From: Nereocystis luetkeana
Taxonomy: Eukaryota > Sar > Phaeophyceae > Laminariales > Laminariaceae
Reading direction: 5' to 3'
Length of the DNA stretch: 64,000 nucleotides
NCBI GenBank assembly: GCA_031213475.1
Contig: JARUPZ010000009.1
Span: 3,001,001-3,065,000, forward strand
The translations under genes and the position numbers were made by a program. Shown piece by piece: positions 5,091 to 54,746 of the stretch. The first letter of the stretch is position 1; the number at the start of each line of letters is the position of its first letter. The notes beneath the pieces are model-generated. The model was not told the DNA's origin. It was given only the letters and a program-made list of their open reading frames with translations, and ran no database searches.

Positions 5091-5350
5091 GTCATTGATT
5101 CCCAAAGTTCATGATCTAGATCTGTCACACAAGGCAGATATATTTCCAATAGATCTTGTACGATCTAGCTCATGTTGCCGAGTGGGACCCGAATATAATC
5201 TGCATGCTCTACTATCAATCATAGCACATGTACCTGGATTGGATATGTAAACATTGCAGATCATGCGCAACCTTTCACAACGGCATGAGAGGAACTACTG
5301 TAGATGATCTATCTGTAGACAGGTCAGATAGATCACGATATGTCTGATCT
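5090..5350 (+). repeat. Dispersed repeat family D, copy 1
   Basis: About 250 bases beginning ttgattcccaaagttcatg and ending near gatagatcacgat, closely related to 13457-13687 and more distantly to 19395-19520 and 35787-35905. Compared with the 13.5-kb copy, this copy carries an extra CTGTA after a TA near 5295, which is discussed as a footprint. No terminal inverted repeat was found. Confidence 0.7.
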
Positions 5351-6409
5351 GGGCGGGATTCCTGGCAAGGCCACTCAGCAGCGAGGCTTTTGGCCTTCAC
5401 CGGACTTTGTTATGGAAACTTGATTGACTTTCGAGTTGGGAGGATTTATATCTTGGAGACATTCAGACCGGGGAAAACCGTTGAGCCGATTTCAGAGAGG
5501 ATGCTCTCTTAACCTGGCAATGCAAAATAATGGGATGTCGAGGGAATTGAAAGGTTTGCGATCCTACATTTCGTCTTTGTGATTGGGATGTTTTCAATTT
5601 TGATACTCGAGATTCTGGATCTTAGTGCTTGATTGTGAAACTGAGATTTGTAATATAGATTATGGGGCTTAGTGTTAGGAGTAGTTTTTTTAGTGATGAT
5701 GCCGATATATTGCGATGCTTTATAGCCACGGCGCTTACTGTGCGAGGGAGGTATTGGTCGATAGGGTTTTGAGCTAGCTCGGTATATCTGAGTTGACACC
5801 ACCAGACGTACATTGTGTCGCGCAGTCCCCAACACAGAGCAGGGAGGATGTTGGTTGTGCTTGTCATATTATACAGGTGCGACGGCGGTTGGAGATATTG
5901 CAGAAAATCGCATACCTGGTACATGATAAAGATATATTGTAGTGGGACATCGGGAGCCTCGGCGGAAACAAGGTGTGTCTTTCGCCGTCTATTTTATGGC
6001 GATGTGTTCCTTGGTTCTGACTGCTGCCTCCTGTGCTGTACCATGAATATGGATAAACCCCCAATACAGACTCCACAAGTAGACGTCTGGACTCTTGCAA
6101 AAGAGCAGGAAAGGCATTTGGAGTAAGCTTGATGTTGCCATACAGTAGTCCCCAAGGACGAAACGTCGGCATACGTACTTGAGAAGTATTGTCTTCCATA
6201 TGGGTTTTGAAGGTACCGTAGTACGAACTGAGGGTCCTTCCTATGTATTGTACTATTGTACCAGTTGTTGCTCCCCAGTCTTTACTCGGTGGCGCTCGTC
6301 AGTCAGGGGCGTCGTAGCATACGTTATTAACCCTTTTCTGACACCGGGACAACGACCAAAACAATGGTTGATAACTTTGGTGTTGCCGTCAAATCGTATC
6401 CAATACGAT
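5351..6409. other. No recognisable gene
   Basis: Short overlapping frames only. A few phrases resemble the decayed gagatttg-type repeat near 5580-5660. One TACCTGGTA 9-mer lies near 5911. Confidence 0.4.
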
Positions 6410-6560
6410 CAGCGTGAGCACCCCCCGAAGTACGGATAGCATCATGTCGCGCCCGTGCCGTACGACTCCTTGCATCAACCATCCTAACCCGGGCACCAAC
6501 CATTGCATGATTTTCCCCCCCAAATCGCGCAGTGGCCGTTGTTGTAATCGCCATTGTTCG
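6410..6560 (-). repeat. Dispersed repeat family G, copy 1
   Basis: The segment containing ccgtacgactccttgcatca followed by a gggcacca motif is shared with 8120-8270, 11045-11140 (opposite orientation) and 41800-41900. The minus strand reads ggttgatgcaagg. The family is short and its ends are unclear. Confidence 0.55.
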
Positions 6561-7320
6561 TTGTCAAGTTTCTCTTCTGAAGTCACCACGAGGGTTAAAC
6601 GCGCAACGAGTACTCGTGTGACACACCCGCCGGTACTGTTCGTTGTACGTCATGCGGTAGTGTACGTTAGTACCTACAATGACCAATACTCGTAAATGTT
6701 GCCGCTGTTGGACTTTTAGTGACTTGTCTGTTGAGATCGCAGCGGATTCTTAGAGTGAAAGAACCATGACGACAGCCACCAGCTTTAATTCACGTTTTCA
6801 ACGCAAGTCTATCGTTGGCGCGCTCCGACCTACAGTAGTATCTGCTATGTCCAACACGCACCGATACTCTGCTGATGCAGAGCTGTGGACGTAAGTTTGT
6901 GATCCCACGACATATATGTAAGATGTTGCTGCCGTTCTGCCGTCCTACTGACTTGATTTACGCTGCTGATCATTCTGACCATAGGTTACGGTTGGGGTTG
7001 ATGACCACTCAGGTATAGGACACGATGATATTCGACCGCAAAATAGTGATTGGCGTATGTCAGACGGATGGAATATCTCAAAACGATACACATCTCCACA
7101 CATCCCCAAAACGGGCAGGCCCCGAGGGCACAGAAAGGCATTCGAGACCATTGTCGATACCGACCATCGGTCGTCGTATGAACCGAAACGATAGTCGACG
7201 GCGATACAGCAGTCGAGCCTATACCATAGACCCCGTTGATTGCCGTGCTCTGCATCGCCCTCGCACGTGGTGTGCTATTCCACACTAACACCTACATAAA
7301 GCCTTCAAATATTCCGTCCA
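6561..7320. other. Sequence downstream of the fucosyltransferase gene, no gene seen
   Basis: This lies 3' of the minus-strand GT10 gene. If that gene has a further C-terminal exon it would lie here, but no convincing one was found. No polyadenylation signal could be assigned. Confidence 0.35.
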
Positions 7321-7324
7321 CATC

Positions 7325-7542: not shown

Positions 7543-10500
7543 CTGCATCACGAATGTCGGAAGGAAGCGGCGGGTAGCTTGGTGTTGCGATTGGTGGCAG
7601 TGGCCATGCTAGTGGTGGTGGTAGTGGTGGTGTTGCTGCTGATGTTAATAATGGTGGTGGTCGTCGCGGGGGTGATGGCCCTGCTGTTGCTGTTATTGGC
7701 TGGCGATGGTTGTTGGTGGACGCGGCGTGTTGCTGTTGATCAAAATGAGAAAAAAAAAAAAAAAAAATGTCTTGATCCTGAAAAACAGGATAAAAAAAGG
7801 GGCGTACACAATTGGTACTTGAAAATACCTGAAATATCAAGCTTGACCAAGTACATTTTAACAGGGGATATCATGCTGTTCTACACGTCCAACTGCATAC
7901 CTTCTGCGCGCAAACGGCCTAACACACACAGCCCAATACGAACGACCAGACTGGTATACAATACGTACATGAACGTGACAATCAACCAGTCCGCATCGGA
8001 AAGAGCACACGATCGATCTATGCCATCGGATTTTCACCCCCCCCTCGGACCCCAAGATAGCGAGTAGTAAAACAAAAAAGGTTGGTGTCTTTTTTAACCA
8101 TATACGAGCAGATTGAGCGCCCCGCAGTACGCGTGAGGCCATGGTGCGCCCGTGCCCGTACGGCTCCCTTGCATCAACCATTACAACTCGGGCACCAACT
8201 ACTGTGTCGTCCCTCAAACCACGGAGAGGGCGTTGCTAGTTTCGTCCGTGTTTTTCCCTCTGATTTCTCGAGAGCGATACTCTTCCGTTTAGATGTGTAG
8301 TGCAGGATCTGTAGAGTGCATGCAAGGCCCAACCCAGAAAGCCCGTGTTTACAATAGATATAAAATGGGAACCTGTTAGAGCTATCTCCTATCGAGTACA
8401 CCCCCCCCCCCCCGCTCCCCCCCCCTCCCATCCGGCAACATGAGCTTGACAAAAACACAGGTCGGTCATACAGAGCAGGCATATCTCAGCGCTGAACGAC
8501 ATAAGAGTATGACGTGACGTGGGGATCTATGATATTTCGGACGTAGCTTTCTCCACTCACTGGTCGTTGTTCTCGAATGCCAAGAGGAACTTGTAACGCC
8601 CGAGGACTTCGACCTTGTTCTCCTGCCGGTTCGTCGCTCCGGAGCCTTTCACCAGTATCGGTTCTGCCCTGTTGGCCAGCGAAATGACGACGGCGGTCGG
8701 GAATGTTCCAAGACGTCGACACGTATTATATTTTTACAGCACGGACACGCACCGTGAACACAGACCCTACAGCACAATCAGTGCCTGCGGCATCGTATAG
8801 AAAACATGCACGACTACAATAAAGGCAGTGCATGCAGCGCATGAAGAACATACAGCGCATACAATTCATACAGCAGATGCACCTCCAGCGCATACAATAC
8901 GTATAGTAAATACGACGCAATCGGTACTCACGGTGGTGCCTAGAGTACACGCGGCACGCAGAGCACACGAAGCACATACAGCACATACGACGCAAAGAGT
9001 ATTACACTGCATATGCCAGGCACAGTAGTACATACAACACGTACAACACATGCAGTACGTACAGCACATGCTGCATATATCACATACAGTACGTGCGGTA
9101 CAGTGCATACATAACATACAGCGCATACGGCTGATACAATACACCCACATGTACTGTAGTACAGTACATGCAGCGCATACAGCACATACAATACACACGG
9201 CTAGTACAATAAATCCAGCTATTGCGGCACATACAGCACACACCGAACTACAGTACATCAAGCACACGAAGGGCGAACAATGATACCAGGTACAACATAT
9301 GCAGCACATACAGCACATACAGCACATAGAACACATAGAACACATGCAGCAGACAGCACATGCACCACATACAGCACATACAGCAATACACAATACGTAC
9401 AGCACACACATACAAACACATAGACCCGACGCGCGATAGAAAAACGCCCTGCAGGAACCTGGGTTGTAGTAAGTACATCAGTCCTGGGACGGGAGATAGT
9501 TAATGCGTAGACTAACCTCTAGACGGAATAAAAATGCGCTACAAGAGACGGCTAAATCACGAATGTCAAGGAGATGGCAGTTTTGGGCGTCGTCAATCGC
9601 GACTTTAGGGACTCCTACCCTAAAAATAGTACATTATGCCTACAACTCATTACTTTAAGAACTCCCACGCTAGAACCAATACATGAAGCCCACAAAACGC
9701 CTCATAACCTTAAGCACTCCCACGCTAGAACTACAGTAGTTCATTACGCCAGTAGACCGCCTCACTTTATGAGCTCCCACAATAAACCTAGTGCGTTAAC
9801 CCTATTAGCATACCGCCTCATAACTTCAAGAACTCCCACGCTAGAACCACTGCGGCGCATTACGCCCATCGAACGCCTCATGACTTTAGAAGCTCCCACA
9901 CTTAAAATAGTACACTAGTCCTAGACCGCCGTCTGTCATCGGTCTGAACTACCGTGTCCTGGTATGTTTACACAGGTCAAGCCCGGCTAGACATACACAA
10001 GTATCAATAGCGAGCAAAAACCTGTTGTGCAGGCAGCCGCCAAAGGAATGCACCGTGGTGTGCTTCATGAGCTGCTTCATGTACTCCATTCGCTTCCTGG
10101 CGCCTGCCGCGTCGCAGTTGGATACGAACGCCGCTGTGGCGTCTGGAGAACCGAACCCGTCCTTTTCCTTTTGAAGACGAACAATAACACAGCAAAACGA
10201 AACAAAACAAAACAAACGAAACGAAACGACATGAAATGAAAAGAAAGGAAAGGCAAACTGGAACCAAAACGTAAGGAAGCAAACCAAACAAAAAGTGGAA
10301 CCGAACCAAACCAAACCAAACCAAAGGTGCAAAGAAATCATACCAAACCAGACAAAACCAAACCAAAGAGGGAGTAGAACCGAACCGAACCAAACGAAAG
10401 GTGCTACGAAATCGAACCAAACCAAACCAAGCCAACACCGAAACAAGCGAAACGAACCGAAACGAAGCTAGCGGAACAAAGCAAGCCAGACAAAGCTGAA

Positions 10501-17000: not shown

Positions 17001-19306
17001 CGCAAATTGGTGTGTCACGCACGCACGGCATATGGGCGGCAGCGTCGTAACGTTTTGCTCTATGCATGTTGCCTGTTGCCCACCCGGCGTATGTCTGGGG
17101 TTGTGTGCTCATGAAGCAAAAAAACAGACGACAAACTCCCGGCACGTACGTACCCCTGGTACGAAATAATGCCTCTCGTAGTGAAACCCGGGGAATCGTC
17201 TCATCCACTCGTGCCGAAAAAACAGGTTGGAGCGTCCGCCACGCGCTCCAGAGTGCACGGATCGCGCCCGAACCTCGACCAACGTGTTCGGCCGGGCTTC
17301 CCGTGTCGACAACAGAGCGTTGTGCGGAGCACTTCTCGTGCCAAGAGATGTGTTGCAAAAGAGTACAAAGAAATCACAAACACAACTGCACATATATCCG
17401 GCATGAAGGAATACAAAACCCCGTCGTAGTACGCGCGACCGAACCGCCACACGCGGCTTGCAGAGCTGAGCTTCGGAGACATAATCTCTACCTCACAGCC
17501 GACGTTTTCGAGCTAAAACAACATAAACACAGCAGTACGTGAGCCGTAAAACATTAGCACGATAGCTGCACCTTCTTGTCCCTGAGGAGACTCTGGATAG
17601 GCTTGAACGTCGTGGGCTCCAGGTTGACGAAAACGTACTTGACGCCCTTCGGCTTGGCGGGGAAGCCCTCCCTTCTGTCGTGGGTGGAGCCTTGAAAAAG
17701 GACGCCGTTCGCCTTTGGGAGAAGGCTCTGCGCGAGCGAGCGAGCGAGGGAGTGAACAGCCGGACGGACGGACGAACGAACAAGCGCGTTTTTTAGACGC
17801 GCGCTGCGATGAATTGGCAGAGGCGTTCTTGACTGAAGGTAGCACCTCAACCGAGGAACCACCTATAACGTCACCGGGAATACTTCCCAGCATCACGTGT
17901 ATAGGCACAGACACAGAGCACTGTTCGTTAAAAACGCCTTCGTGGAGGCCGCGGAATCCGTCGCCATCACCGAGGGCACGCCTACCTATCTTCTCAAAAG
18001 TCCGTCTCGGATGGAGGGGTGTGGGGAGCTCTTTCAAGCGAGGAGCCTTCAAGCGAGGAGCTCCAGACAACGTTACGCGTCACCCAAGTAAGGCACAGCA
18101 CGCATGTTGGTTTGAATAGACCATGCAAGAGAACGAGCGAGCGAAACAAGCGGAGACGTCCTCGCCGCTGGAAGAAACAATATGGATGCTCGTGCGAACT
18201 CGAACATGTACGGACATGCTATTACGGGGGAACATAGTTAACAGGACCTATGGTATACATAAAAACCTATATGTTTAACCATTTTTACTAACAATATTTT
18301 TTTGGTCCTGTTAACTATGGCCCCCCTTAATAGTGTGTGCGGCCTTCATCATCATCATCCCTACATATTCGAATAGCGCGTAAGACACACCAGAATAGCG
18401 AGGGAGGCAGATGCTCGGGCGAATTGGAACACCTACGTGCGTACTGCGTGCAGGGTTCATCTTCATCACAAGAGATGACGACAGCGTGCGGGCGAACTAC
18501 ATACCATAACCCTTTTAGGACCCCAATCCCGTTTTGGGGACAAACTACTTATATTTAGAGTGAATTGTCCCCACATATGGGAGTGCGGTTCTATAAAGGG
18601 ATAAGCGCACAAAACGTGCACATCTCTTCTTCATCGCGGATATGCGGGTGACGCACAAAGGCTGTGGATTCGGAGAGTGCGCGACCTTGGATTAATCCGC
18701 AGGAGATGGAGGTACGCAAAAACGCCTCGGGGCGAACTTCGAACAGGGCGCAGGTTTTGCCTTCGCAAGAGACGTAAATAGCACGCGAGCGAATCTATCA
18801 AATGAAGAAAAAAACGCGGATTTTGTTCATCACGGAGATGCACAAAAAAAAAAAAAGCGAAACTGGGCAGTAATCCGAAAAAGCGCGTAACAGCTGTGTG
18901 TTTTTTTTCTGTGCGCAGGATAGTACGGTGCGGTGCGGTGCGGATTTCCATGTTCGATATAATAGTCTACACATACGGTGAGTTTTGAGAATCGTACCGT
19001 GCGGTCCGCCGCGGTGCGGGTCTTTCAGTATTACACGGTGCGGTGCGGTGTGGTGCGGTGCGGTGCGAATCTCTCCTTCTCGAAGCCCCTTCACCTGGAA
19101 GTACGATGTGGCCGATTCTGGAACAGCCTTCAAAGTTCTATTTTCGACCCGTCTTCTCCCGCTCAAGTCTAAAAAACCGGTACCTACCCCCCCCGCGCGC
19201 TTCGCGCAGATGCATTGCTTACCCGCTCGTCCGTGAATACGCATTCCGTCGGACACGTGTCCCTCGCTCCTTTCACGAACTTCGGTCGCAGGTACTCCAG
19301 CCATCC
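7325..19306 (-). CDS. GT10 alpha-1,3-fucosyltransferase-like gene (six-exon span, 5' end not found)
   Basis: Six minus-strand exons join into one GT10 catalytic domain: 19223-19306, 17572-17727, 12490-12606, 10022-10167, 8561-8668 and 7325-7542. Phases at the joints are 0, 0, 0, 2 and 2, and all five introns (from about 1.0 to 5.0 kb) have GT-AG ends. In order, the protein carries a CPTEC motif, a VLFQGSTHD segment, YVFVNLEP, FDLTMTYERSSDVP, FVSNCDAAGAR, VHSFGGCLHN and the signature KFLLAFENNDQVDDYVTEK followed by LPVYWGA and YVPKGSVV. Family knowledge: GT10 enzymes transfer fucose from GDP-fucose, usually as type II Golgi membrane proteins. The N-terminal anchor and start codon were not identified. 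A reading-frame break in the last exon leaves open whether the gene is functional. In an alga such an enzyme could act on N-glycans or fucose-containing cell-wall polysaccharides; this is inference. Confidence 0.9.
8120..8270 (-). repeat. Dispersed repeat family G, copy 2 (intronic)
   Basis: Shares ccgtacggctcccttgcatc and the following gggcacca motif with 6410-6560. It lies in the last intron of the GT10 gene. Confidence 0.6.
8561..8668 (-). CDS. GT10 fucosyltransferase, fifth recognised exon
   Basis: Acceptor CAACAG, donor CA followed by GTGAGT. The 108 bases read in phase 2 as (R)AEPILVKGSGATNRQENK then VEVLGRYKFLLAFENNDQ. The segment GRYKFLLAFENN is the conserved GT10 motif immediately before DYVTEK, which the next exon supplies after a 1.0-kb intron. 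An upstream open frame continues past the acceptor but loses similarity to the family, which supports the chosen boundary. Confidence 0.9.
8790..9425. repeat. Degenerate short satellite, CACATACAG type (intronic)
   Basis: Roughly 70 imperfect iterations of a 9-base unit near cacatacag (variants catacagcg, catacaata, cacgtacaa). The minus strand therefore stays open and appears to encode Cys-rich peptides (CMCCMCC type), which are an artefact of the repeat. It lies in an intron of the GT10 gene. Confidence 0.85.
9585..9925. repeat. Minisatellite of about 60 bp, five to six units (intronic)
   Basis: The unit begins near actttaagaactcccacgct and continues agaacc..attacgcc..cgcctcataact. Units start near 9600, 9652, 9710, 9765, 9830 and 9880, and they differ by substitutions and small indels. 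Confidence 0.8.
10022..10167 (-). CDS. GT10 fucosyltransferase, fourth recognised exon
   Basis: The acceptor is CTTCAAAAG and the donor is AACAG followed by GTTTTTG, which is a weak donor. The 146 bases start in phase 0 and encode EKDGFGSPDATAAFVSNCDA, then AGARKRMEYMKQLMKHTTVH and SFGGCLHN(R). The SNC...R...Y...L and VHSFGGC pattern is diagnostic of GT10 and contains residues that line the GDP-fucose site in the family. The split AG|G codon restores Arg with the next exon. Upstream of the acceptor the same frame is only AAACG/AACCA pentamer translation. Confidence 0.92.
10180..10700. repeat. AACCAAA/AAACGAAA low-complexity tract (intronic)
   Basis: Imperfect pentamers (aacca, aaacg, aacga) fill this stretch, which lies just upstream of the GT10 exon at 10022-10167. 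On the minus strand it gives a T/G-rich run that could act as an extended pyrimidine tract. The long minus-strand frames across it are artefacts of composition. Confidence 0.8.
10873..10967. mobile_element. Family B MITE (intronic)
   Basis: Starts at cccttctagaatcccagtcc after a TAA and ends gtaaaaggg. The inner arms carry ggggacaaaac and gtttgtccccaaaacgg. It sits in the 2.3-kb intron of the GT10 gene. Confidence 0.75.
11045..11140 (+). repeat. Dispersed repeat family G, copy 3
   Basis: Inverted relative to the other copies: ggtgtccgagttacaatggttgatgcc followed by ggagtcgtacggcac. Located in a GT10 intron. Confidence 0.55.
11641..11895. repeat. Dispersed repeat family F, copy 1, with a poly-G head
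   Basis: A poly-G run of about 20 is followed by about 220 bases shared with 39628-39865, including gaccatagacc, tcgggttttcaccga, ttgcttgcac and aagcgcgaagcgccgtgagg. No inverted termini seen. Confidence 0.7.
12177..12440. repeat. G/A-rich simple-sequence tract (intronic)
   Basis: Plus strand almost entirely purine (gggaggg, agagaga, ggaggcgg), with a G run near 12340. The minus-strand polypyrimidine makes long but meaningless Pro/Ser/Leu frames. It lies about 50 bases downstream of a GT10 exon. Confidence 0.8.
12490..12606 (-). CDS. GT10 fucosyltransferase, third recognised exon
   Basis: A near-ideal acceptor (T-rich tract then CAG) and a strong donor, GAG followed by GTATGT, bound 117 bases in phase 0. 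They encode SMSNFDLTMTYERSSDVPLG, then YVSSTSASRYFDSPKATFE. FDLTMTYERSSDVP matches the GT10 FN.TMTYR.DSD.P motif. The Arg usually found after Tyr is Glu-Arg here. The preceding exon supplies the VNLEP segment and the next supplies SNC. Confidence 0.92.
13321..13352. repeat. Short GGAC-type repeat
   Basis: The tetramers ggac/ggcg are repeated, followed by a short G run. Confidence 0.6.
13457..13687 (+). repeat. Dispersed repeat family D, copy 2 (intronic)
   Basis: Nearly collinear with 5090-5350 (ttgattcccacagttcatg at the left, gatagatcacgatctgtc at the right). It retains what looks like the uninterrupted site gaactagatgatcta, where copy 1 has five extra bases. Confidence 0.7.
14029..14063. 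repeat. (GTT)n microsatellite
   Basis: About eleven GTT units. Confidence 0.95.
14074..14310 (+). repeat. Dispersed repeat family H, copy 1
   Basis: A-rich segment (cgtggtcgcaggacaggctc..gaagaaatacctc..aaaacagaggcaaa..gcactccaccact..gggaagcaaaaaggagac). Its left part recurs at 50392-50465 and its right part at 51366-51540. Confidence 0.65.
15933..16041. mobile_element. Family A MITE (intronic)
   Basis: TATTACGGGGGGCCATAGTT at the left and the matching inverse ending CCCCCGTAATA at the right, with about 30-base arms. The interior is ggaccaaataatgttagta..gtgtaccataggtcc. Reverse orientation relative to most copies. Confidence 0.9.
16150..16192. repeat. CAG/CGG triplet tract
   Basis: About nine CAG units run into five CGG units. 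Located in a GT10 intron. Confidence 0.9.
16503..16584 (-). tRNA. tRNA-like sequence (degenerate tRNA or SINE head)
   Basis: The minus strand starts gggtcttt and ends agagatcc, which can pair as a 7-bp acceptor stem with two G-T pairs. A good T arm (gcgag, loop ttcgatc, ctcgc) is present, as is a D-arm-like gtagtatattggtcac. The anticodon region (gccctt, T run, atatttaaggc) is too long and irregular for an intact tRNA unless it holds an intron. Most likely a tRNA pseudogene or the head of a tRNA-derived repeat. Confidence 0.4.
17572..17727 (-). CDS. GT10 fucosyltransferase, second recognised exon
   Basis: Acceptor GCGCAG and donor AAG followed by GTGCAG bound 156 bases read in phase 0: SLLPKANGVLFQGSTHDRRE, then GFPAKPKGVKYVFVNLEPTT and FKPIQSLLRDKK. 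In GT10 proteins this region (..ADAV.FH....P....Q.WV...EP) follows the C...C.FT.DR motif, which the upstream exon provides. The YVFVNLEP stretch is the family's wVf.slEsP equivalent. Confidence 0.9.
18220..18332. mobile_element. Family A MITE (intronic)
   Basis: Left end TATTACGGGGGAACATAG, right end CCCCCCTTAATA. The interior carries acctatggtatacataaaaa and ccatttttactaacaat. Located in the first recognised GT10 intron. Confidence 0.9.
18510..18600. mobile_element. Family B MITE (intronic)
   Basis: Begins CCCTTTTAGGAC and ends TTCTATAAAGGG, flanked by TAA on the left and ATAA on the right. The inner arms are the usual gttttggggacaaac motif and its inverse. Confidence 0.85.
18925..19075. 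repeat. GGTGC pentamer tract
   Basis: Two clusters (18928-18948 and 19036-19070) of ggtgc units, about 150 bases from the first recognised GT10 exon. Confidence 0.8.
19223..19306 (-). CDS. GT10 fucosyltransferase, first recognised exon
   Basis: The acceptor is a T-rich tract ending TTTTTGACAAG and the donor is CGG followed by GTAAGC. The 84 bases in phase 0 encode GWLEYLRPKFVKGARDTCPT then ECVFTDER. C(P)xxC with F-T-D/N-R is the conserved N-terminal element of the GT10 catalytic domain, and the next exon continues directly (SLLPKANGVLFQG). Since the domain begins around here, earlier exons should encode the start codon, membrane anchor and stem. They were not found with confidence. Confidence 0.85.
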
Positions 19307-19520: not shown

Positions 19521-20207
19521 CATCACGTACAATAGCAAAGAAAACCGGAAAACGAAAAGGAGGGCGAAAGGAAAGTACCTGGTACACAATAAAAACAAAA
19601 CAAAAAAACACACACACAAAAAAACACACACACAAATACACACAACACAGAACGCAAGAAAAAGGGAAAAAGAAAAAGGGGAAAATACTGCGAGAAAACG
19701 CGTTATACTTGCAAATTTATATAGATATGTCACGAATCAGCCTTCAGCGGAGAATTACGAGGGAGCGTTACTTCAACACGCAAAAGCCTGGACAGAAAAG
19801 CTCGCCACGTCGATGACGAGCCGTTCTACCCACCTCCGCGCCAACCAGCTACGAGTAAAGACTTACAGAAGCTGTGATCAAGCGTAAAGGTTGAGACAGA
19901 TGGCATTGCAGTGTCTCGAGGCCGGGAGCAGTCGCCGTAACAGGCAGGCTATTCAGGTACATCATTTTGGCTTGTTCGCCATTTCAAGCATCTGTGCTAA
20001 TCGACTACGCCACCTCCTCGTACTCCTCGCCTGTGAAAATCATCTCGCCTTTTATAGCGGTACACGACTATTAATTCAGAAAAATTGTACTCTCACGCTG
20101 CTGTTATTATTCGTGAACCTCGGTCGACCGTTGTCCACATCTACGTTCGAGTGCTACGGCTGCCACCACTGGTATTAATACGTACTACTCGCTACTACTG
20201 CTATTAC

Positions 20208-20316: not shown

Positions 20317-20658
20317 CTACTACTACTGTTACTGCTGCTGTATTTTCAAAACTATAAAACAGTAGCTGTGGTACCGACGATTTCGTCGAAACTCATATTT
20401 GCAAGCTGTGTGTTATATTTCTATCTCGCGTACCACGGGTTTGGTATGTGGCTTCATGGAGGATGTACCTCTCGTTACCTGGTATGAAGACGAAAGAGCA
20501 TTTTGAGGGGAGTTAAAATACATGTACCTGGTATGTGTATTTATTTTTTGGAGTCGAAAATGTCGATGTGTTTGTTTTGTATTTGTTTTTCAATCCCCAC
20601 CAGATATCTGGTGGCGCCGTGGTTGCGGGCGATCGACGGAAGAACGAAACCTTCAGTT

Positions 20659-25213: not shown

Positions 25214-25560
25214 TGTCGTTTTTTTTTTTTTTTTTTTTAAATCTGAAATTTTCAATTTTATGCTGAGTACAGAGTGTGTGCGTCAGAGAGAGACATGGTT
25301 TGAATTTTGTGTTGCGACAGAGCTATAGAGTGTATGATGAGATATGAGAACGTGTATGTGGTCTCATGAAATCCATCTGCTTTGAATTTTTCACTGCACC
25401 TGTGCACCTATTTGTCGGTTCTCTTGCTTGATACTTCATGCAGATTACCTTGCACTTTGTACGTACACTAAGCAGTCGTACATATATACCAGGTACCAGG
25501 TACCAGGTATGTGTTTTCTTTTTTTCTTTTGTGCACTGCTGCGTGCCGTCCGCCGCACAG

Positions 25561-26399: not shown

Positions 26400-26989
26400 C
26401 CCGGCCAGCGCGGTTATAACCGGTAGGTTACATCAAAAGCTGATTTACATTTATAATCGGCAGGTTACATGGTTCACGCGCGGTTTCTAACTTCCCTGGA
26501 AAAAACCCTCATAGCCCATCATTATTGCAACCTCGTGGGGTGATTCCTTCGATCGCGCGTCCATCGGTGTGTGTGCTTATATACCGGTAAAAACTCTCAG
26601 TAAACAATACCAGGTAAGTTATCTACTGATTTGAGCCTGCCAGTATATGCCGCCAGTAGAGATTATGCTACGTGAAAAACGTACCAAGACGGGGGAACAC
26701 GGTATTCAGGACCAAATACGCCCAGTGAACACAATGGAATAGGTGATTTTGAAGTGTGTACGGTGGGTCCTGATTTACTGCGGGCACCTGTATCGGCTAT
26801 CTGCCGCACTTTAGACGTCAACAGGGCGTCAGCTGCTGAGGAGCTGGGCTGTTCAGAAGAGACGATCTGTCAAAAGTTAGGCCGGTCGTCACGAAGACAT
26901 GTCCTATGGTTCCTTCCGCTCATGCCGATATCTCACTTTCTGAAAGCGAATAATGGTACAGCGTCCAAGAAAACACGCCGCAATATACT
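26400..26989. other. No recognisable gene
   Basis: An 87-codon plus-strand frame (26754-27017) runs into a repeat copy at its 3' end and has no known domain. A ggttataaccggtaggttac phrase near 26411 resembles one at about 24300. Confidence 0.35.
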
Positions 26990-30329: not shown

Positions 30330-30376
30330 ACTTGTTACGAGGGACCTTATTAAATACCTGGTAGGACCTACGGTAG

Positions 30377-30489: not shown

Positions 30490-31890
30490 GTATATACGAA
30501 ATACCAATATCGGCCCTCGCGTACAAAAACACGCACAGATACAAAAAACACTTAATAGCCTCACAAGAAACTGTGAAAAAATCAGAAAGTGCAAGGTAAA
30601 ATACCTACCATCGCCTAGGCGATCAAAATTAAGAAAGTACCAGGTATAGTATGTACCATAGCCTAGACAATCGTTTGCCGTCTATTACATAGGAAATGAT
30701 AGGAGATACGCGCTTTCTCTTCGGGACTATGGTTGCCTGAAAGTCCTCGGGGATGTCGCAAGCTGAGGTGGGAGTACACAGCAGGCGTTCATTCGTCGTA
30801 CCAGCTACTCGTAACGTAGCCACCGGGCAAAAACGACGAAGATGGACAAAAAAAATAAGAAGAGCTGAGGAAGAAAAAAGTAGCCACGGGGAAAGCACCC
30901 GGGCAAGTGACACCGACCAACCCAAAACAAGTTCATAGCTAGTTAGTTACCTCTCGGACTACAGTAGTCGTCTCAGCGTACGTCGCCTGCTGCCATCTGG
31001 TTGCCAAAAGCTATCTAGCTCGGGCTAGTCGTGTTCGCGTGCGTCGCTTCCTGTCGGCTTCTGGCGCCAACAGCCAGCCTACAGTAGTCGCCCAGTTGTA
31101 CCAACCGCCTGGTACGAAAGCTAAGTTGTATCTACGTACACCCCCCCCGTTTCTCGCCCCGCCAGACAAAGGACGGATGTTAGCCTCAACCTCAGCTTTC
31201 AAGTTTCTCACGAGAGGACCGATACCGTGCAGCAGTACGAGTACACCCTCTAGCATGTGTGTGTGTGTGTGTTTTTTTTTTTTTCTTCCTCTCTCTCCTT
31301 CGGTACACCTTATGACGGCGGCCCGTGATAAAAAAGGCCGGATTAGCTCTGAACTTTTTGTCCAAGTCGTGGTGGAAGCCAACGCACGACGACTGTACTG
31401 TAGCTCAAAATGACCGCACCGGCTAGGCGAGCACATATATACCATGGTACCTGGTAAACGGGACGGACAACAAAACAAAAAAATCCGATGTGGTGTTGAA
31501 AACCTATGGCTTTTTTAGCACGTCTTCAACGAGTTTCTATATACTACAGTAGTCAGTCAGGTCGCTCGTGAGAGCCTGGCTTTGCACGTAGAGAGGAAGA
31601 AAAGGGATGGGGGGGGGGGGGGCTGCGTACCCAGATGGTACCGTGGTGAAAAGGTGAATCTCACTTGCGAAAAAAAAAAAATCAATCAATCAACCAATCA
31701 ATCAATCGCTGAGAGCGCGTAGGGTGGGTTTCGGTAGTAGTCGCAGTTCGACGAGCGAAGAAAGGGCTGAAGAAAGGGCTGAAGTCTTCCTCTCGCGATA
31801 AAAAAGCGTACCACTCTGTCCCTATATATAGGGACTGCATTAAGTCAATAATAGTTTAAAAACGGTCATTGTATTTAGGGACATAGTAGT
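30490..31890. other. No recognisable gene
   Basis: Contains a poly-G run near 31608, an AATC microsatellite near 31681-31708 and a perfect 18-base palindrome (gtccctatatatagggac, near 31820). The phrase cagtagtcg occurs several times. Confidence 0.4.
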
Positions 31891-33100: not shown

Positions 33101-34919
33101 ACACAATAAACGGAATACACAGTTTTTTTTGCTTGTGCGGGGCGTTGTTGACCCGTTGTACATACCAGTCTACTATCAATATACCAGAAAACTACTGCAC
33201 TTGCTGCATTGCACCAGTCTAACCGGGAATATATTACCATATACTTCGGAGTACGACTATATACCAGGGATATTAATATACCGGTATACCTGGTATATAT
33301 ATATATATATGGGTCTCAGGCCGTTGCTCTACTGTCTGTCAGTCGGTGATATCGGCCACTGACGATCGTGCATGAGCAGAGGTTGTTCTTCCGCTGTCCT
33401 GGATACTGACTCTTGTGCTGAAGTGGCCGCAGATCTTCGTAGATTTGATGATAGTCGAGGCGGGAAATCTTTCTCTCCTCCGTCACGGAGAAAATTGCTG
33501 ATGATAGCTGTAAAATCACCGACTACTGACGACAGGTGAGATGATCGTTGATGTGAGACGACTTGTGTCTTGTGTCATGATCTCTTCCGCTTCGGCGTGC
33601 CGTGCCGAGCATCAACGATACTTGGCGTGTCCTACACGCCACACCTACCATACACGAAGGCAAGCTTTGCCGCAGACACATATCACACACACGTATATTC
33701 CCCCGCTTGATAATCCCAGGTTTTGCTTGGGCGGGGCATCGTTGACACCATACTGCTGTATCAATCAGTCTACACAAGGCGCTTCGCTCAGGAAGGAAAA
33801 CAGTGCATCAAATTATGCGAAGCAGACATGGGTCCATGGTTGAATACATTTTTTTTTTTTACTATTGTTGTTGAACACTGGCGACTTGATTATGCCAACA
33901 GCCTCGGCGCCATGCCAGAGGAGAAAACTGCTCGGACGCCGCATACGCTTCGCGTAACGGATGTCGTACGTACGTACATAACCCAAGTACGAGGGTACTC
34001 ATTTTCTTCTTTTGGTATGCTCTTATGTCTGTGTTCGTATGTACGAAAGAGAAAGCACAGCAGTAGTGCCGCACAGCAGCACAGCAAAAACAAAAGAAAA
34101 TGAAACCGAAAATTTCGGAAAGAAAAAAAAAATACCCGTCCCCTCTCGCGTAATATTTTCTGCCTGGTTGGAACAACACCTCACATCGGTCAAGAAGACG
34201 AAAAGGAAAAAAAAAAAACGAACAGAAGAGGTTTCTCAGCCTCGTACGCCGCCCGCCCCTCTCGCGACCATCTCGCAACCGATTCGGTAGGGGGAAGCCT
34301 TTCCTCCCTCTCGGTCACAGCCCCGTCGGCCGCCTCATGTTAAGCCCGGTGCTCACCTTGGCCTTCGTTCGCCATCTCGAAAAAGTTGGTGCTCAGACTG
34401 GGTCGCTCTTTCGTTGGTTTTTAGTTTCGTCTCAATAAATTCCGCTTGAAATTTATTTTGCAAATCAAAACGACCTTTATATACTCGTACATGGTATAAC
34501 CGGGACCACAACAGGAGGCCAGACAGAGTCAACTCATGCTTCCCTCGTGTCTCGACGCACACGCGACGCCAAGCCGCGAAAACGGCCACCGTGCTCCTTG
34601 CAACCCCCTCTCTACCCCTACCCGCCACCACCCGCTGACACCCGCGACGGTGCCGCGCTCGCCCGCGGTGCCGTGCTCGGAGTACACGCACGCACACGGA
34701 AACGAAAGAAAAAAAAAGAAAAAGAAAAAAAAAAGGACTGAACGTGCACATAGAAATGCAGAAAAAAACAAAGAACCGCTGGAAAGGTCCGGCAAGTAAC
34801 AAAAAGAGGCGATCCCCAAGTGGGAGCTCCGAGAGGCCAGGGATGTACCAAACCGAGCACGCTCAGAGAGTGATATATCTATAGGTACAAGTAGTTCTAT
34901 ATACTCTGTAGAAGCGGTT
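33101..34919. other. No recognisable gene
   Basis: Open frames of up to about 150 codons on the minus strand (for example 34353-34802) are compositionally biased by A- and T-runs. One TACCTGGTA occurs near 33290 in a TA-rich stretch. Confidence 0.35.
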
Positions 34920-35186: not shown

Positions 35187-35302
35187 TATTACGGGGGACC
35201 ATAGTTGACAGGACCTATGGTACACATAAAAACCTACCAGGTATATAGTTGACCATTTTTACTCGCAATATTTGGTCCTATTAACTATGGTCCCCCGTAA
35301 TA
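35187..35302. mobile_element. Family A MITE
   Basis: TATTACGGGGGACCATAGTT at the left and TCCCCCGTAATA at the right. Relative to siblings it carries an extra CCAGGTA after aaaaaccta (near 35234). Confidence 0.92.
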
Positions 35303-36373: not shown

Positions 36374-36694
36374 CTTTTACTTTCCAGCTTAAATTGTACC
36401 AGGTAGGAGGTTTTACCCTCAGCGATTTTCCGGACAAGCCGTGGTAACAGGTACCAGGTAGGTGTCATCCCTTCTCCCCCCCGGTACGTGCCTTCCTCTT
36501 TACTGCGCATAGCGTTCGGCAATCCCACTGCTCGTCGATTTTCATGGAATGCTGCTAACTCACGCTCTCGCGCTTTCCGCTAATCAATTTTTATGCAAAG
36601 AAAAAGTCCCTACGAGTATGCACTCGGTGAAACTCGAACCCACGAAATTGATCTTAATAGGCACACGGACCACCTACCAAGCCACCGGAGACGC
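36374..36694 (-). mobile_element. tRNA-derived SINE family 1, copy 2
   Basis: Inverse of the 31.9-kb copy, with the B box as ggtgaaactcgaacccac on the plus strand and the A box near 36668. It contains two TACCAGGTA motifs (about 36397 and 36449) that the other three copies lack. Confidence 0.85.
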
Positions 36695-40934: not shown

Positions 40935-41051
40935 TATTACGGCGGGCCCTAGTACATAGGACCGAATGTTGCTAGTAAAAATAGCGAAATACCTGGTATA
41001 TAGTTTTTTTTAAAGTACCGTAGGTCTTATTCAACATGGTCCCCCGCAATA
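40935..41051. mobile_element. Family A MITE
   Basis: TATTACGGCGGGCCCTAGTA and ccccgcaata ends. Relative to siblings it has an extra CCTGGTA within agcgaaata..tatag (near 40992). Confidence 0.88.
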
Positions 41052-41900: not shown

Positions 41901-41944
41901 TTTTTTTTCTTCAAAATATATACCTGGTACGCATTTTTTATTAT

Positions 41945-42282: not shown

Positions 42283-42584
42283 CTGTATAGTACTTATACC
42301 CGGCAAAAGGTATGTTTGTGAAATCTTTGCACTTTTTCGAACATATTTCTTCGTACGAGCGCTTTTCTGGCGAAATGCTGTGTACCTGGTAGTCAACACG
42401 GAAACCCCGACCGGACACGTTGGTCGAGGTCCGGGCGCGACCCGTCCACTCTGGAGCTCTGGAGCGCGTGGAAAGTTTTTTTTTTTTTTTGACAGCGGGA
42501 GTGGGACGACTCCCCTGATTTCAGTACGAGAGGCCTTAATTTGCACGTAGGCACCGGTAAAATGTTGCCTGTTTTTCGCCCTAC

Positions 42585-42689: not shown

Positions 42690-43790
42690 GCCCTCATGAG
42701 CACACACTGCAGTCCAGACACATACCAGGTAGACAACAGACAACACGCACAGATTAAGACGATACAACGCTGCCGCCCACGCGCCGTGCGTGTGCGACAC
42801 ACCCATATGCGCTGTAATTGCCGTGGCTTGTTGTGTTTGTCGGAGCCTGCCGTCCGTAATCCACCATTTGCCCTATTTGTTTTCATACAGACGTACCCAG
42901 GCTGACTACCGGCACAATTTGTTGTGTTTTTTGGACGGCACGACCGACAGGCCAGACAACGATAGCAGCAGCGCACAGAGTGTGCTTACATACCTCCAGC
43001 CGCCTAAAACACCACAACCCTCCCGCCCAGCAGCGGCAGCAGCGGGCAGCACCTTGCGCGTATTCTGGCTGTGATCGCACTGCGGCTATTAATAGTTGAT
43101 TTATCGGAGACTGCGATCGATCACTTCACCACGCCACCATACCATCAATCGCCTCTCTGGTTCTGTGTATAGTTATGAGATCCAACGTTGCCACTGCTCC
43201 AGCAGTGCTCATGCAGCAAAGTGCGCCAACAGCAGCAGCAGCAGGCAGTGCACTATGCGCATGTGTCAGATACGCGCTGTATTCTCAGTACTAAGCGTTC
43301 GTTGTTATGGCATTAGCATGCCCCTATGCACGTACCGGCCGTAACAATGTGACCGACATTTTTTGCTCCGTACCGATCATCCTCGGATCGATATATACGA
43401 GTCGAGTCGAGTGCAATAAATCGTTCGTACAATCATCGTGTACCGCAGCATTCGTAGAATACATAGTACAGACTGCTGCGCGTAAACACTGCTGACCGAT
43501 AGATCCTAGAGCCAGCCGAACGGGCAGCAGTGCACGCTCCTTTGCCGCAGTAAACGTATTTCTTCCGCATATCACATGGTATTTGACAGCAGCACTGCTG
43601 TACATGCACTTACCAGTAAAAGCTACTCTCAAATCTGCCATGCGTTTTAGACTGCAGATGTACGAGTACTGCTGTTTAGATATAGAGTACATTGGCTGCG
43701 CGCGATACTATCTTTATTTCCGGGGTTCGATCCCCACGTTGCTCATTCCGTCTCCCCGATGAAAAATAAACTTGAGAAAAAAGTAAATAC
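42690..43790. other. No recognisable gene
   Basis: A T-arm-like ggggttcgatcccc lies near 43733, without a full tRNA. Frames are short and overlap. Confidence 0.35.
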
Positions 43791-43794: not shown

Positions 43795-44762
43795 CAGGGC
43801 TTTTCGCGGGCCATGACCCATGACCCATGACCCGACCCGCGGGTCGGGTCGCGTGGTGTTTGTCACGGGTCGGGTCGGGTTGGGTCGGGTCGGGTCGGGT
43901 CGGGTCGGGTCGGGTCGGGTCGGGTCGGGTCGGGTCGGGTCGGGTCGGGTCGGGTCGGGTCGGGTCGGGTCGGGTCGGGTCGGGTCAGGAAGTGTTCAAA
44001 ATCTCACGGGTCGGGTCGGCTCGGGTCAAGAGGTTTCCAAATCTCGTGGGTCGGGTCAGGTCGGGTCAAGAGATTTTCAAATCTCACGGGTGGGGTCGGG
44101 TCGGGTCAAGAGGCACTGGAAAACTCGGGGGTCGGGTCAGGTCATGACCCGCGGGAAGCGGGTCACTCGCGGGTCCGGCCAGCATGACCCGCTAGTTGTT
44201 TTCTACTGACCCGCGGGTCGGACCCGCGCATTCGGCTGGTGGATCCGACATTTGAATCACTTCCCGCTCTCTTACCCAATGGCTTCTCTCGTACCAATAC
44301 TCAATAAGACTCCTTTGGTAACATATTCAGACATTAAACACCGCCAAATTCATATACGCATGCCCGCATGCATCTATACCCACTACGGCCAGGTGATACA
44401 CATATCGTAGCGGAGCACTAAAATGTTCATAAAATTGTTTTGGGAGTGCAGACCCACGGGCCAGGTCCGCGGGTCGAACCTTCGGGTGAAGATGAATGGT
44501 CTCGCGGGTCAAGATGACACGACCCGCATGAAACCCGTGTCTGACGGGTCAATCGGAAGGTGGCGGGTCGGGTCGGGTTGGGTCGGGTCGGGTCGGGTCG
44601 GGTCGGGTCAGGAGATTTTCAAATCTCATGGGTCGGGTCGGGTCGGGTCGGGTCAAAAGGCTTTCAAAATCACGCGGGTCGGGTCGGGTCATGTCAACAT
44701 ACCTCAATTTTGTCGCACCCGACCCGACCCATGAGGTTTGACCTGGCCCGCAAAAAACCCTG
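43795..44762. mobile_element. hAT-like non-autonomous element filled with a GGGTC satellite, copy 1
   Basis: Terminal inverted repeats CAGGGCTTTTCGCGGGCCAT (left) and, reading inward from the right, CAGGGTTTTTTGCGGGCCAG. Flanking 8-mers are atactcac (43787-43794) and atatttac (44763-44770), six of eight identical, consistent with an old 8-bp target duplication. Ends starting CAGGG and 8-bp duplications are typical of hAT elements. The interior is a GGGTC pentamer array (perfect for about 25 units at 43865-43985), interspersed longer units ending in tttcaaatctc, a unique core of about 300 bases, and a second array at 44565-44660. No transposase. Long frames are repeat artefacts. Confidence 0.8.
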
Positions 44763-45980: not shown

Positions 45981-45993
45981 CAACCTGCTCACT

Positions 45994-46183: not shown

Positions 46184-47275
46184 GGCTCATTCTTATCGGA
46201 GAGCTTTTTTTCCAAAATTTCTAAAGTTTGGAAATTGAAGATATGTATCCATATACGGAGGCGTTCTGTCACTATTCGTGAAATTCTCCAGAAGCAAAAA
46301 TATCAAGTTCGTTAGGCCGGATCTTATGCATTTTTTTTTGAGGTGATTATATGACTGTTTACGGAGGCTTCGGGGTATCTGGTCCCATATCTGATCAGAT
46401 TCTATCAAAATCACGTCTTATGGGGCCTGTTTGGTGGAAAAAATGTTCCTCCGAGATTTTATCACTCCTGAAATTCCATGAAATGATTTTTTTTGGCAGC
46501 CTTTTCTGATCAACTCTGAAAGTGATAAAATTTGGCTTTGCACTAGACCTCGGTGGCATTATACAATTTTGTCTAGGTTATAGACTGGGTTCATGACGGG
46601 TCACGACGCTACATGCTTGGTTACGCTTGTACACAGCTGGGCTCCAACACTTGTGCATCGGCCACCACGGAGAGGGAGGGCATCAGTGCCTTGGCCACCA
46701 TCGTGTCCCTTGCGGCTGCCCAACTGCAGCTGCTCGAGGCAAAACTTTGGAAACGAATAGGACGAGACTACAGCAGCAGTATCAAAACAATCAAACGGTA
46801 TTTTTCTGACTACGACCGCCGCAAGCAGCTCATGCTCCGCGAAGGCGAGAGCTCCTTGCTGGTCCAGCGACTAGCAAACCCCTTACGCAGCTCCCCAGGG
46901 GGTTCCACATTCCGCTGCTTCCTTCGAGGAGCTGGTGGTGAAGGTTGATCGCCCAACCCGGCGTGAGCGACTCTCGTTCGTGTCGTGGTCCACGTGGAGT
47001 TCAAAATGTCGGTTGTGTTCTGTTTTATTAGTTCTCCCATGAAATAAAACCAAAATCACGATAAGACGGCACATGGCGCACCGATCTGGTGTGGCTTTTT
47101 GCCGGTGGAAAATCCGACTTCCTGCCTTTTTCAATCACTCAAAAAAAATTGCATAAGACCCAGCCTTAACATTCCAATATTTGGAAAAAGAAAACAGGAA
47201 TATATGGAAGATTGAAAAATTGCGCGAACAAAATGTCGAAAATTTGGAAAAAAAGCTCTCCGATAAGAATGACCC
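46184..47275. mobile_element. PIF/Harbinger-like element, 1.09 kb
   Basis: Inverted termini of about 38 bases: GGCTCATTCTTATCGGAGAG at the left, and reading inward from the right GGGTCATTCTTATCGGAGAG, both continuing ctttttttccaaa. Each end is flanked by TTA (46181-46183 and 47276-47278), the 3-bp TWA duplication of PIF/Harbinger. The interior has one plus-strand frame of 111 codons and no recognisable DDE transposase, so it is probably non-autonomous. Confidence 0.82.
46613..46948 (+). CDS. Short frame inside the Harbinger-like element, function unknown
   Basis: 111 codons, with a helical middle (ISALATIVSLAAAQLQLLEA then KLWKRIGRDYSSSIKTIKRY, FSDYDRRKQLMLREGE). This could be a remnant of a DNA-binding or captured protein, but no domain was recognised. 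Its central position is like that of accessory frames in such elements. Could be chance. Confidence 0.3.
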   Translation: MLGYACTQLGSNTCASATTEREGISALATIVSLAAAQLQLLEAKLWKRIGRDYSSSIKTIKRYFSDYDRRKQLMLREGESSLLVQRLANPLRSSPGGSTFRCFLRGAGGEG

Positions 47276-47663: not shown

Positions 47664-47664
47664 T

Positions 47665-51365: not shown

Positions 51366-51540
51366 TGTAAAACAGAGGCAAACAACAAAAAAACAAGCAT
51401 TTGCACTCCACCACTAAGGACCCCAGGGAAGCAAAAAGAGACTATTAATCGTAGCAGACAAAAACAAAAAGAAGATGAAGCGAAGCAGAAAAAAACAAAA
51501 CAAAAGCAGGCAGCAAACAGCAAAAAAGCAAAACGGAAGA
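51366..51540 (+). repeat. Dispersed repeat family H, copy 3 (right part)
   Basis: aaaacagaggcaaacaacaa, gcactccaccact, gggaagcaaaaagagactat, matching the right part of 14074-14310. Confidence 0.7.
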
Positions 51541-51999: not shown

Positions 52000-52250
52000 A
52001 TGTGCAACATCCCGTAAAACCTCAGGTATGAAGATGATACTAATAATATGTAGTGCAACGCCTCGTGAATCCTGTATGAGGATACTATGTGGTGCAACAC
52101 CCTGAGAATCCTGTACCAGGTATTGTGAGCCTGAGGACACTATTATAAGAAGTGCAACACCCCGTGAATTATGTATGAACATCCGGGTAGTGTTCTGTAT
52201 GAAGATACCAAGTAGTGCAACACCCCGTGAATTATGTATGAACCTAGTAC
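52000..52250. repeat. Minisatellite of about 50 bp, five units
   Basis: gtgcaacaccccgtgaatc/tatgtatgaac units recur near 52007, 52058, 52095, 52155 and 52213. One unit holds TACCAGGTA (near 52117) where others have a plain ta. Confidence 0.85.
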
Positions 52251-53149
52251 GTACGTATATCTCTATCTCCTCGGCCACTTAGATACTAGACTGCGTATCC
52301 ATTCTGCAAATACAGCTATCTTATTTACTGATGGTTGGTCTATATATTTACTGATGGTGGGTCTATATCTGGTGTACTATATATAAACCAAGGTACTCCA
52401 TCACCTTAGCCCACCCTGAATAGCCGTAAATGCAGATCCCACAACGATACAGATATGGCGACTTAGACATAAAAACATCGAAAGAGGGGGTCGAAGATAC
52501 TGCTATTCGAAACCAACAGCCCAATGAGACCATAGACCAACCCACACCTCGTAAATGAGGCTAAGGCGCCTCTGGTAGAAGCAGCATTCGAGCGAGAGGA
52601 GGAAAACATGAAGGAATCGAAAGAGTAGCGACACAAAAGGATGTCCGTCGTGGTAAAACACGAAACTAGAGATACCAGGGGGCGACCGGCAAACGTAGGC
52701 CCGATGTAACAAGTCGTGGCTATCCTCGGTGTAGGCCTACAGGAAAGGCGTAAGGGACCGAGCAAAGTAAGGCACGAACTTGGAAGCTAACGAAGAAGCC
52801 GGCAATCGCCTTGAGGTAGGGCGAAGCCCACATGAAGTTATAAGGAGGAGGACACTACAAGGTCCCTACGTGTTAACAACTACGAAGAAAAGGAACAAAC
52901 AAGCAAGAAATGAAAGAGGAGAAGAAAAAGAGAGACAAGAAGAAAGATCGCAATAATACCGAAATACCGAAATACCAATAGACCAAAATACCGAAACCCC
53001 CGTGAAGGAAAGGCAGAATGGAGATGAAACAGACAGCGAACGCACAGAAAATTCCGCCCCGAAACTAGTAGACGACAATCTAACGCATCTCCCGACCACC
53101 CGCTACTGTTAACTGGTCGGGCGGATGAGTGGTGGTGGGGGGGTGCATT
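52251..53149. other. No gene seen
   Basis: A-rich plus strand near 52870-52990. Two short phrases (tttactgatggttggtctat) are tandemly repeated near 52325. Confidence 0.4.
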
Positions 53150-53706
53150 GGCATTACGTAGTACACCGCGTGCTAGTCCTCCGGCCTGATGACGCTGAAG
53201 GCACCAGGATCCTTGGGTCGCGCTCCGTGAGGTGGTGTAAAGGGACGGAAGTAGAGTAATCTTGATCGGGCCCGGGTCGTCTAGAAAGCGGACGATGTAG
53301 GAGTCCGTGGGGGAGGTGTCGGTCGAGGCGCGGGCGGCAATTTTGCCCAACCACCAAAACAAAGTCCATCGCGGGTCTTGTGCCAGAGGTGCGCCCCGGC
53401 GGGTAGAGGTGAAGAGCTGAAGCGGCGAAGCCAGAGAGTGCGCGGTACGAGGCTGTACCCGGGGGCGAGGAAGATTTCGCCCCGGGACCGTGATAGTTCG
53501 CGGTGAGCGGCCCCGATGCGCATCTGGCGGTATAACCGGTTGGTCTGGCGATGCTGGGAAGGGGTGCCCGACCAATAGCGAAGGATGTGGACTCGGTGAA
53601 GCTGCAGGTCTCGTTCGTGTTCCCAAGAGGGGCTAAGGAGTCCGGCCCTGTGTGTTTCGTACATCACGGCGAGAACGCCTCCCCGGCCACGAACGAGTTG
53701 ATCCAA
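53150..53706 (-). mobile_element. Retroelement-like relic, C-terminal pol-type fragment (family uncertain)
   Basis: The minus strand encodes, in more than one frame, a stretch beginning VRGRGGVLAVMYETHRAGLL and containing RVHILRYWSGTPSQHRQTN, YIVRFLDDPGPIKI and SATQGSWCLQ. The order of a basic linker then a beta-rich F.DDPGP module recalls the region after the integrase in retroelements. I could not assign a family. It is a broken fossil with a few interruptions and no ends found. Confidence 0.4.
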
Positions 53707-54746
53707 GGTACTCTATCACAACATACATACGTGAGGTACACGGGACATTCAAAAATTTGTTTATTCGAGTACGAGTATATGGTAAGTAGCAGTTCATTCG
53801 TTCATGCAATAAATGATACAACCTTGGGGGAAAAACTTATCGCGCTTCGTTGGTGTGCCACATAAACACGATGACACGCGTACGAGTAGAAGTTATCACG
53901 AAAATAGGAATGGGGGCGGGTAGAAATATAGCATGCATACATATATATTGCCGCATAGCGCGCAGAGGGTTGCTCTGCACGCTGGTCCCAGTGACATCGG
54001 CACTGTTGGGTCTATTGGGTCTACTGTTTCATATTGTCGCACAAAGTATCACTCACCGCCATCGCCGAGACCTCGCCTCATAGGTCACGATTCAGGATGC
54101 AACCTGAGAGGAAAAATGAGTGAATTATGGAGTGTCTAGGTCTTGCGTGGGACGCGACAGCCTCGTCCATGAATTGTTATTTCTCACCGAGGAGAAACCG
54201 CGCATTCCAAGCCCATCGTGAGGCGTTGTGATTATTTCTTAACCCTATACTCGCACCGGTACGACGAGGTGTCTAATTACGTACCAGGTATACTATACAA
54301 GATGGGTCAGCCATGATGTGCGCACAACCAATCATGTACTGTAGTCGTATCTCGTGAACCGCGCTGCGCATTAGGACTCGAAATTTGGAGGTACTGACCC
54401 TGACATACAGTGCGTGTGCGAAAAAAATGTTATTCCTGTAAAAAGATACTGGCTAACATTCCGAAATGAAGTAGTCGTTCCCGATCAAGGCGAAATTTGC
54501 TGGAGACGTTACTAAGGATACAGGGAGAAGATCGATGTCAGTTTCGCTGCCCCTCACGAGATATATGTATGGCCAAAAACAATATCACATACTTAAATCA
54601 AGTGTATGCACTTCCGGACGCACAAGACATACGCTAGTACAGGCAGTAGGTTCGGTGCTCTACGGCGTACAAGAAAGTTATGCATTATTTACCTGCGTCA
54701 TTAACGGCAAGCATTAAAGGCGTACGTACACGAACATCCTACACAC
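53707..54746. other. No recognisable gene
   Basis: Short frames. TACCAGGTA near 54282 and TACTGTAG near 54340. Confidence 0.35.

Follow-up and report, generated by a model that had tools for sequence, protein, structure and literature searches.

The question raised by this locus is why a single nine-letter word, TACCWGGTA (W being A or T), recurs throughout a stretch of 64,000 nucleotides of Nereocystis luetkeana (Phaeophyceae, Laminariales; GenBank assembly GCA_031213475.1, contig JARUPZ010000009.1, positions 3,001,001 to 3,065,000 of the forward strand), referred to below, at its full length, as the window. The exact word was counted 23 times in the window against 0.41 expected (100 shuffles, maximum 3), with A at the centre in 12 copies and T in 11, and no off-centre single-base variant occurred more than twice. 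A first-pass annotation, made from the letters of the window, had noticed about 20 or more copies and taken them for excision footprints; all 22 positions that it listed were real, each within 3 bases of the place given, and a 23rd copy was found at 4089, outside the range it covered. The genome-wide count that it had proposed was made, and gave 182,395 copies (one per ~2.5 kb), against 1,744 for the reversed pattern used as a control (~105-fold difference). A chance origin of the word is ruled out by the window shuffles together with the reversed control. A probability of about 0.77 is given here to the reading that TACCWGGTA is a footprint left on excision by a cut-and-paste DNA transposon specific for TA, or by its miniature inverted-repeat transposable elements (MITEs).

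The genome comprises 465,085,209 bases in 1,987 contigs, the window included. Most statistics were obtained from a 273-kb sample (273,027 bases) made up of the window and the stretches L003-L005 and L011-L030; where indicated, this was extended by L031-L035 to 323 kb (323,027 bases, 0.07% of the genome). L011-L015 were chosen in a part of contig 1 where matches had already been seen, and the remainder, L016-L035, were placed at round coordinates. The 129 scars in 323 kb correspond to a density near that of the whole genome.

Sites were aligned with sibling repeat copies spanning them. Within the window, a spanning sibling was found for 7 of the 23 sites, and in four of these (35235, 36397, 40990 and 42383) the word was a clean 7-bp insertion relative to one or more siblings. 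Those at 35235 and 40990 are the additions to family A MITE (MITE A) copies that had been noted earlier near 35187 and 40935. For the short interspersed nuclear element (SINE; the label is that of the first-pass annotation) said to carry the motif twice, the copy at 36397 was confirmed as a clean 7-bp insertion, and the one at 36452 turned out to be an insertion of 11 bp. Conversion of TA into TA-CCWGG-TA by a 7-bp insertion was supported where siblings permit comparison; in the window it is borne out by the four clean cases, is unsupported at 42723 (see below), and the alignment at 9284, in a low-complexity tract, was uninformative. In the 273-kb sample, a sibling spanned 46 of the 119 sites, and for 17 of the 46 the alignment with at least one sibling had gaps in precisely 7 of the nine columns of the word (tallied from the alignment listing). 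A census of gaps between repeats that was blind to the motif returned rotations of TACCWGG for 15 of 45 distinct 7-bp insertions, and CCWGG was present in 16 of the 20 insertions of 7 bp that duplicate a TA (273 kb). At one TA, siblings of an L015 repeat carried zero, one or two copies of the motif, and at one site in L020 the siblings read TA, TACCAGGTA or TACCAGGTACCTGGTA. Insertion at TA with duplication of the TA was seen through the scars, from the single TA of the sibling empty sites, and not through an element.

For another family of the same genome, sites were seen in all three states (filled by the element, empty and scarred), and it serves as an internal control for the reading of CCWGG. 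MITE A is a 107-bp insertion (counting one TA) with ends TTACG...CGTAA, for which siblings with a bare TA or near-TA were found in two cases, and it occupies 46 places in 323 kb. In L020, copies of one repeat differ at a single TA, where some have no insert, some hold MITE A and some have TTAA; this indicates that the scar of MITE A equals its end bases. The TTAA could derive from a cut staggered by 2 nt, if both ends were retained, or from one staggered by 3 nt (TTA), if the strands paired through TA. The scar word, TATTAATA, was in excess (68 against 1.9 expected, 323 kb), and was a 6-bp insertion in 5 of the 11 sites having siblings. An open reading frame of 483 residues (L046, 1066-2517, plus strand), at a locus reached by a search with PF03184, matched DDE_3 at 2.7e-12; it is present in seven full-length copies, 99-100% identical over the 483 residues (one on a small contig and possibly an assembly duplicate), and three more span residues 63-483 at 99-100% identity. 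The L045 copy was compared with MITE A at its right end, where 22 of 27 bases matched the MITE A end. From these sequences, the genome holds a TA-targeting DDE transposon that is probably recent, and the DDE_3 transposon of L045 and L046 is probably the active partner of MITE A. A Pfam search of the genome for DDE_3 gave 0 matches; as a DDE_3 transposase is present, this was a search miss and nothing was drawn from it. Viral contigs approached by a MITE A word gave two loci, both without scars, and by the doubled scar nine stretches. As with CCWGG, the target of the MITE A/DDE_3 system is TA, and TATTAATA stands where sibling repeats have the element or a bare TA; however, ends of the form TTACG...CGTAA cannot directly give CCWGG, and the flanks of the scars differ.

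A third scar class has the form TACWGTA, which is also the form given for the Sleeping Beauty scar in the first-pass annotation. It is TA-flanked with an A/T centre like CCWGG, but has three bases, other flanking bases and just a ~2-fold excess (122 against 55 expected, 323 kb); it was a 5-bp insertion in 4 of 33 sites having siblings, one of the empty sites not reading TA. Copies occur at window position 5296 and in L015, L024 and L025. The genome thus holds two TA-flanked scar types besides CCWGG, TTAA and CWG, both absent from the first-pass annotation. Further over-represented TA-X-TA words in 323 kb were GGACC, GTTAA, GGATCA, GAGGG and microsatellite units.

The scar is a palindrome with an A/T centre, as in Sleeping Beauty: of the 119 words in 273 kb, 55 had A and 64 had T, and C or G stood at the centre of 4 further words, which bears out the A-or-T centre described at the outset. 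Among TA-X-TA words in 323 kb, CCWGG was found 129 times against 3.4 expected, far above the related forms CCAGGG (9 against 1.0), CCGG (13 against 5.9), CCATGG (2 against 0.3) and CTTGG (13 against 2.4). This suggests a fairly precise joint, easier to reconcile with complementary overhangs that anneal than with ends joined loosely. The CCAGGG inserts, at nine TACCAGGGTA sites, look like an imprecise version of the scar, and two longer or altered TA-flanked inserts, CCCTGCCTGG (L024 3899) and CCTGCGTCTAGG (L020 8734), resemble such versions as well.

A 5-nt overhang of CCAGG or CCTGG pairs with itself except at a central A:A or T:T and would give CC-W-GG; CCAG overhangs of 4 nt, offset by a single base, would give the identical product, whereas CCA overhangs of 3 nt could not pair. 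The element would have ends of the form CCAG(G)/CCTG(G) and a 4-5-nt overhang. The TA-targeting transposon proposed earlier is thus partly supported, in the logic of its scar; the 5-base length of its overhang is one possibility, as 4-nt CCAG, or 2-nt CC plus A, would leave the same scar. The 2-nt case, the main alternative, would be a similar transposon with CC...GG ends, both overhangs being kept and one untemplated A added at one 3' end. It draws on MITE A, whose TTAA is both of its terminal dinucleotides, on a mild enrichment of TTWAA (10 against 1.4, 323 kb) and on the W rather than C or G centre, which suits addition of A. We consider it unlikely: CCGG, the form lacking the extra base, stands at the 13 copies given above and CCWGG at 129, a one-base addition this uniform would be unusual, and the recurring words that start with TACC, which were not individually followed, included none recognisable as the start of an abundant element.

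The target preference was symmetric and non-random (97 non-tandem sites, left and right flanks pooled). Seven bases before the TA, A or T made up 85% (52% in the background); six bases before it, A made up 48% (25%); and next to it, T made up 7% (19%). A scar supplies a TA at the preferred 7-base distance and a G beside the TA, and should therefore itself be a good target. Tandem scars were found at 10 of 108 loci in 273 kb; a fraction of 9.9% is predicted from preference-weighted TAs (partly circular, as weights and flanks derive from identical sites) and 1.6% from density alone. Doubled scars numbered 15,917 genome-wide, against 2 for the reversed control.

The frequency of tandem copies also allows an account with no transposon of its own, in which slippage or tandem duplication multiplies CCWGGTA, or selection maintains it as a functional DNA motif. 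Doubles with the same centre outnumber mixed ones, by 40 of 59 listed rows (all forward, all on contig 1, counted by hand: AA 23, TT 17, AT 14, TA 5). Against this, 98 of the 108 loci are single, with clean TA insertions where siblings permit comparison, and mixed-centre doubles need independent hits or later transversion; slippage as the sole cause is ruled out by the mixed-centre sibling series of L020. Near-miss words, which differ from the scar by a single base outside its centre, were counted 147 times against 67 expected (323 kb), with transitions at 74 against 22 and transversions at 73 against 45. This excess resembles transition-rich decay and not conservation, on which ground the functional motif was rejected; the account as a whole is very unlikely. 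Statistically, the same excess suggests that many scars are inherited and partly old, and counts against scars freshly made in the sequenced cells.

From the 7-bp insertion at TA, the W centre and the target preference, all observed directly, we infer an element, its ends, its overhang and the repair of its sites as follows. Insertion would take place at a TA flanked on both sides by A or T at a distance of 7 bases, and often by A at 6, with duplication of the TA. Excision would leave the terminal CCAG or CCAGG (or CCTG/CCTGG) on each flank as a 3' overhang; C:G pairing would bring the overhangs together with a single A:A or T:T mismatch in the middle, and A or T would be fixed according to the strand repaired, giving TA-CCWGG-TA. 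The scar being a good target, the same sites may be hit again, with tandem scars as the outcome. In its complete form, a transposon with a 4-5-nt overhang whose scar rebuilds its own preferred target, and which has left ~180,000 scars with intact copies scarce or gone, is given somewhat less than an even chance.

The source element was searched for in 323 kb by pairing TACCWG ends. Inner bases matched at 9 or more of 14 positions in 44 of 1,781 pairs; in 37 of them one end or both coincide with a scar, and the other 7 are free of scars at their ends. The best, L015 714-1259, spans 546 bp between TAs and has imperfect inverted ends, TACCAGCAGCGAGG and TACCAGCGGCGAGG, matching at 11 of 14 inner bases, a quality expected ~0.07 times by chance (rough binomial estimate); it is a single copy in the sample, its outer flanks lack the usual target bases, and it is a weak candidate for the missing element. 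L011 1088-1191 (10 of 14 inner bases) was likewise a single copy in the sample. Pairing of TACCWGG ends gave 578 pairs (partly overlapping loci) and no intact element, and recurring words after TACCWGG were mostly overlapping loci or other repeats, some words not being followed. DDE_3 and DDE_1 transposases are present in the genome, none tied to CCWGG ends, and no such inverted ends were found in L047 and L048 (DDE_1 matches) or L049 (a diverged DDE_3 relative). Two further leads gave no element: in L049 scar-like words flank a transposase-like frame, but the inner sequences mismatch; in L014 (4572-9846) an inverted repeat with 2.3-kb arms, 94% identical, surrounds a 615-bp loop with a MITE A-like copy, and the loop ends at a CCTGG scar but has no matching left end.

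Many scars with no established element in 323 kb would also be expected under programmed DNA elimination, in which very many TA-bounded elements are cut out at each generation and the scar would stand for a germline element that the assembly lacks. This is very unlikely: the near-miss excess suggests scars old enough to have mutated, and fresh scars would not decay.

Among known systems, the likeness to Sleeping Beauty and Tc1 lies in the TA on both sides, the short scar of element end bases and the A/T centre; the differences are the five bases of CCWGG against three there, and an element that is here proposed from its putative scars. The Sleeping Beauty footprint is identical to its 3-nt 3' overhangs (PMC7827188), and the scar with its A/T centre is printed as TAG(T/A)CTA (PMC2874221), a form other than TACWGTA. 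Stowaway MITEs of Triticeae also leave TA-flanked end remnants and re-insert at or beside old footprints; several footprint forms occur at one gene there, as against one uniform scar, 182,395 times, here (PMC1925063). No description of a 5-base TA footprint was found in the literature searched for footprints, for algal transposons and for both 9-mers as whole words.

Several points weigh against the excision reading. At 42723, the sibling has no gap at the word and differs by substitutions, and 29 of the 46 sibling-bearing sites have no gap of exactly 7 inside the word; these 29 mix siblings sharing the word, shifted alignments and substitutions (as at 42723 and at L019 8885, which is ungapped). 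Mixed-centre doubles, 19 of the 59 rows, are fewer than the half expected for independent hits, and tandem copying may account for part of the doubles, unless repair has a bias of its own. The intact element with CCAGG/CCTGG termini predicted by the first-pass annotation did not materialise, none being established among the 1,781 end pairs; MITE A shows 46 places for its 68 scars in the same 323 kb, where no intact CCWG element was established. Even complete absence from the 323 kb would be compatible with up to ~4,000 genome copies, and the element may therefore be present but rare. Finally, Tc1/mariner elements are cleaved 2-3 nt inside the end (PMC2170065) and their footprints measure 2-4 bp (PMC7913693), a range of IS630/Tc1/mariner outside which the 5 bases kept here between the TAs fall; non-canonical footprints of other sizes occur too (PMC3770610). 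Because the overhang would be longer than those published, and because of the 2-nt alternative, the element is likened to the Tc1/mariner type and not filed as one; an overhang longer than 2-3 nt would be new among such elements. That the word is a transposon excision scar is nevertheless held with good confidence, its ends, overhang and element being put forward from the form of the scars.

Table 1. Scar words in the window, with the result of sibling comparison where informative
Feature	Position	Strand	Remark
TACCTGGTA footprint	4089..4097	.	exact word count
TACCTGGTA footprint	5913..5921	.	exact word count
TACCAGGTA within low-complexity tract	9284..9292	.	sibling comparison uninformative
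TACCTGGTA footprint	19576..19584	.	exact word count
TACCTGGTA footprint	20476..20484	.	exact word count
TACCTGGTA footprint	20525..20533	.	exact word count
Triple tandem footprint (TACCAGG)x3-TA	25487..25509	.	one TA hit several times, or copied in tandem
TACCAGGTA footprint	26608..26616	.	exact word count
TACCTGGTA adjoining MITE A sequence	30355..30363	.	40-bp L029 sibling has same word at same place
TACCAGGTA footprint	30638..30646	.	exact word count
TACCTGGTA footprint immediately following TACCATGG	31448..31456	.	exact word count
Compound TACCAGG...TATTAATA...TACCTGGTA (exact word at 33287)	33262..33295	.	possibly several neighbouring scars
TACCAGGTA in MITE A copy	35235..35243	.	clean 7-bp insertion vs sibling
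TACCAGGTA in SINE-like repeat	36397..36405	.	clean 7-bp insertion vs sibling
TACCAGGTA at second SINE-repeat site	36452..36460	.	11-bp insertion vs two siblings
TACCTGGTA in MITE A copy	40990..40998	.	clean 7-bp insertion vs several siblings
TACCTGGTA footprint	41921..41929	.	exact word count
TACCTGGTA	42383..42391	.	7-bp insertion vs repeat at 17164-17382; empty site TT, not TA
TACCAGGTA	42723..42731	.	ungapped alignment to sibling (substitutions); insertion unsupported
TACCAGGTA footprint	52114..52122	.	exact word count
TACCAGGTA footprint	54282..54290	.	exact word count
TATTAATA, 12 copies	14219, 20173, 27321, 29859, 33271, 35736, 36141, 42665, 43087, 45399, 45456, 47478		fits MITE A scar

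Other features of the window were recorded alongside. An insertion of ~850 bp at 46314-47166, bounded by the inverted ends GGCCGGATCTTATGCA and TGCATAAGACCCAGCC and apparently flanked by a 3-bp duplication of its target, is absent from an L024 sibling. Retrotransposon polyprotein remains, read as Copia-like, lie at 57956-60083 (minus strand), where one of the two frames tested matched the Pfam SH3-like domain of retroviral polymerases, and CGGGT pentamer arrays, partly arranged as longer units of 40-81 bp, occupy 43866-44690. ARAGORN and Rfam scans of the window gave no matches.

The footprint papers compared here cover few excision sites each, whereas this genome offers ~180,000 uniform scars and two other types. 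Such numbers would let overhang length, repair outcome, target choice and turnover be read statistically. If the excision reading is true, scars far exceed visible elements, and ordinary repeat annotation would miss most of this history; the transposon would also be one that modifies its own target landscape, laying down self-renewing landing sites.

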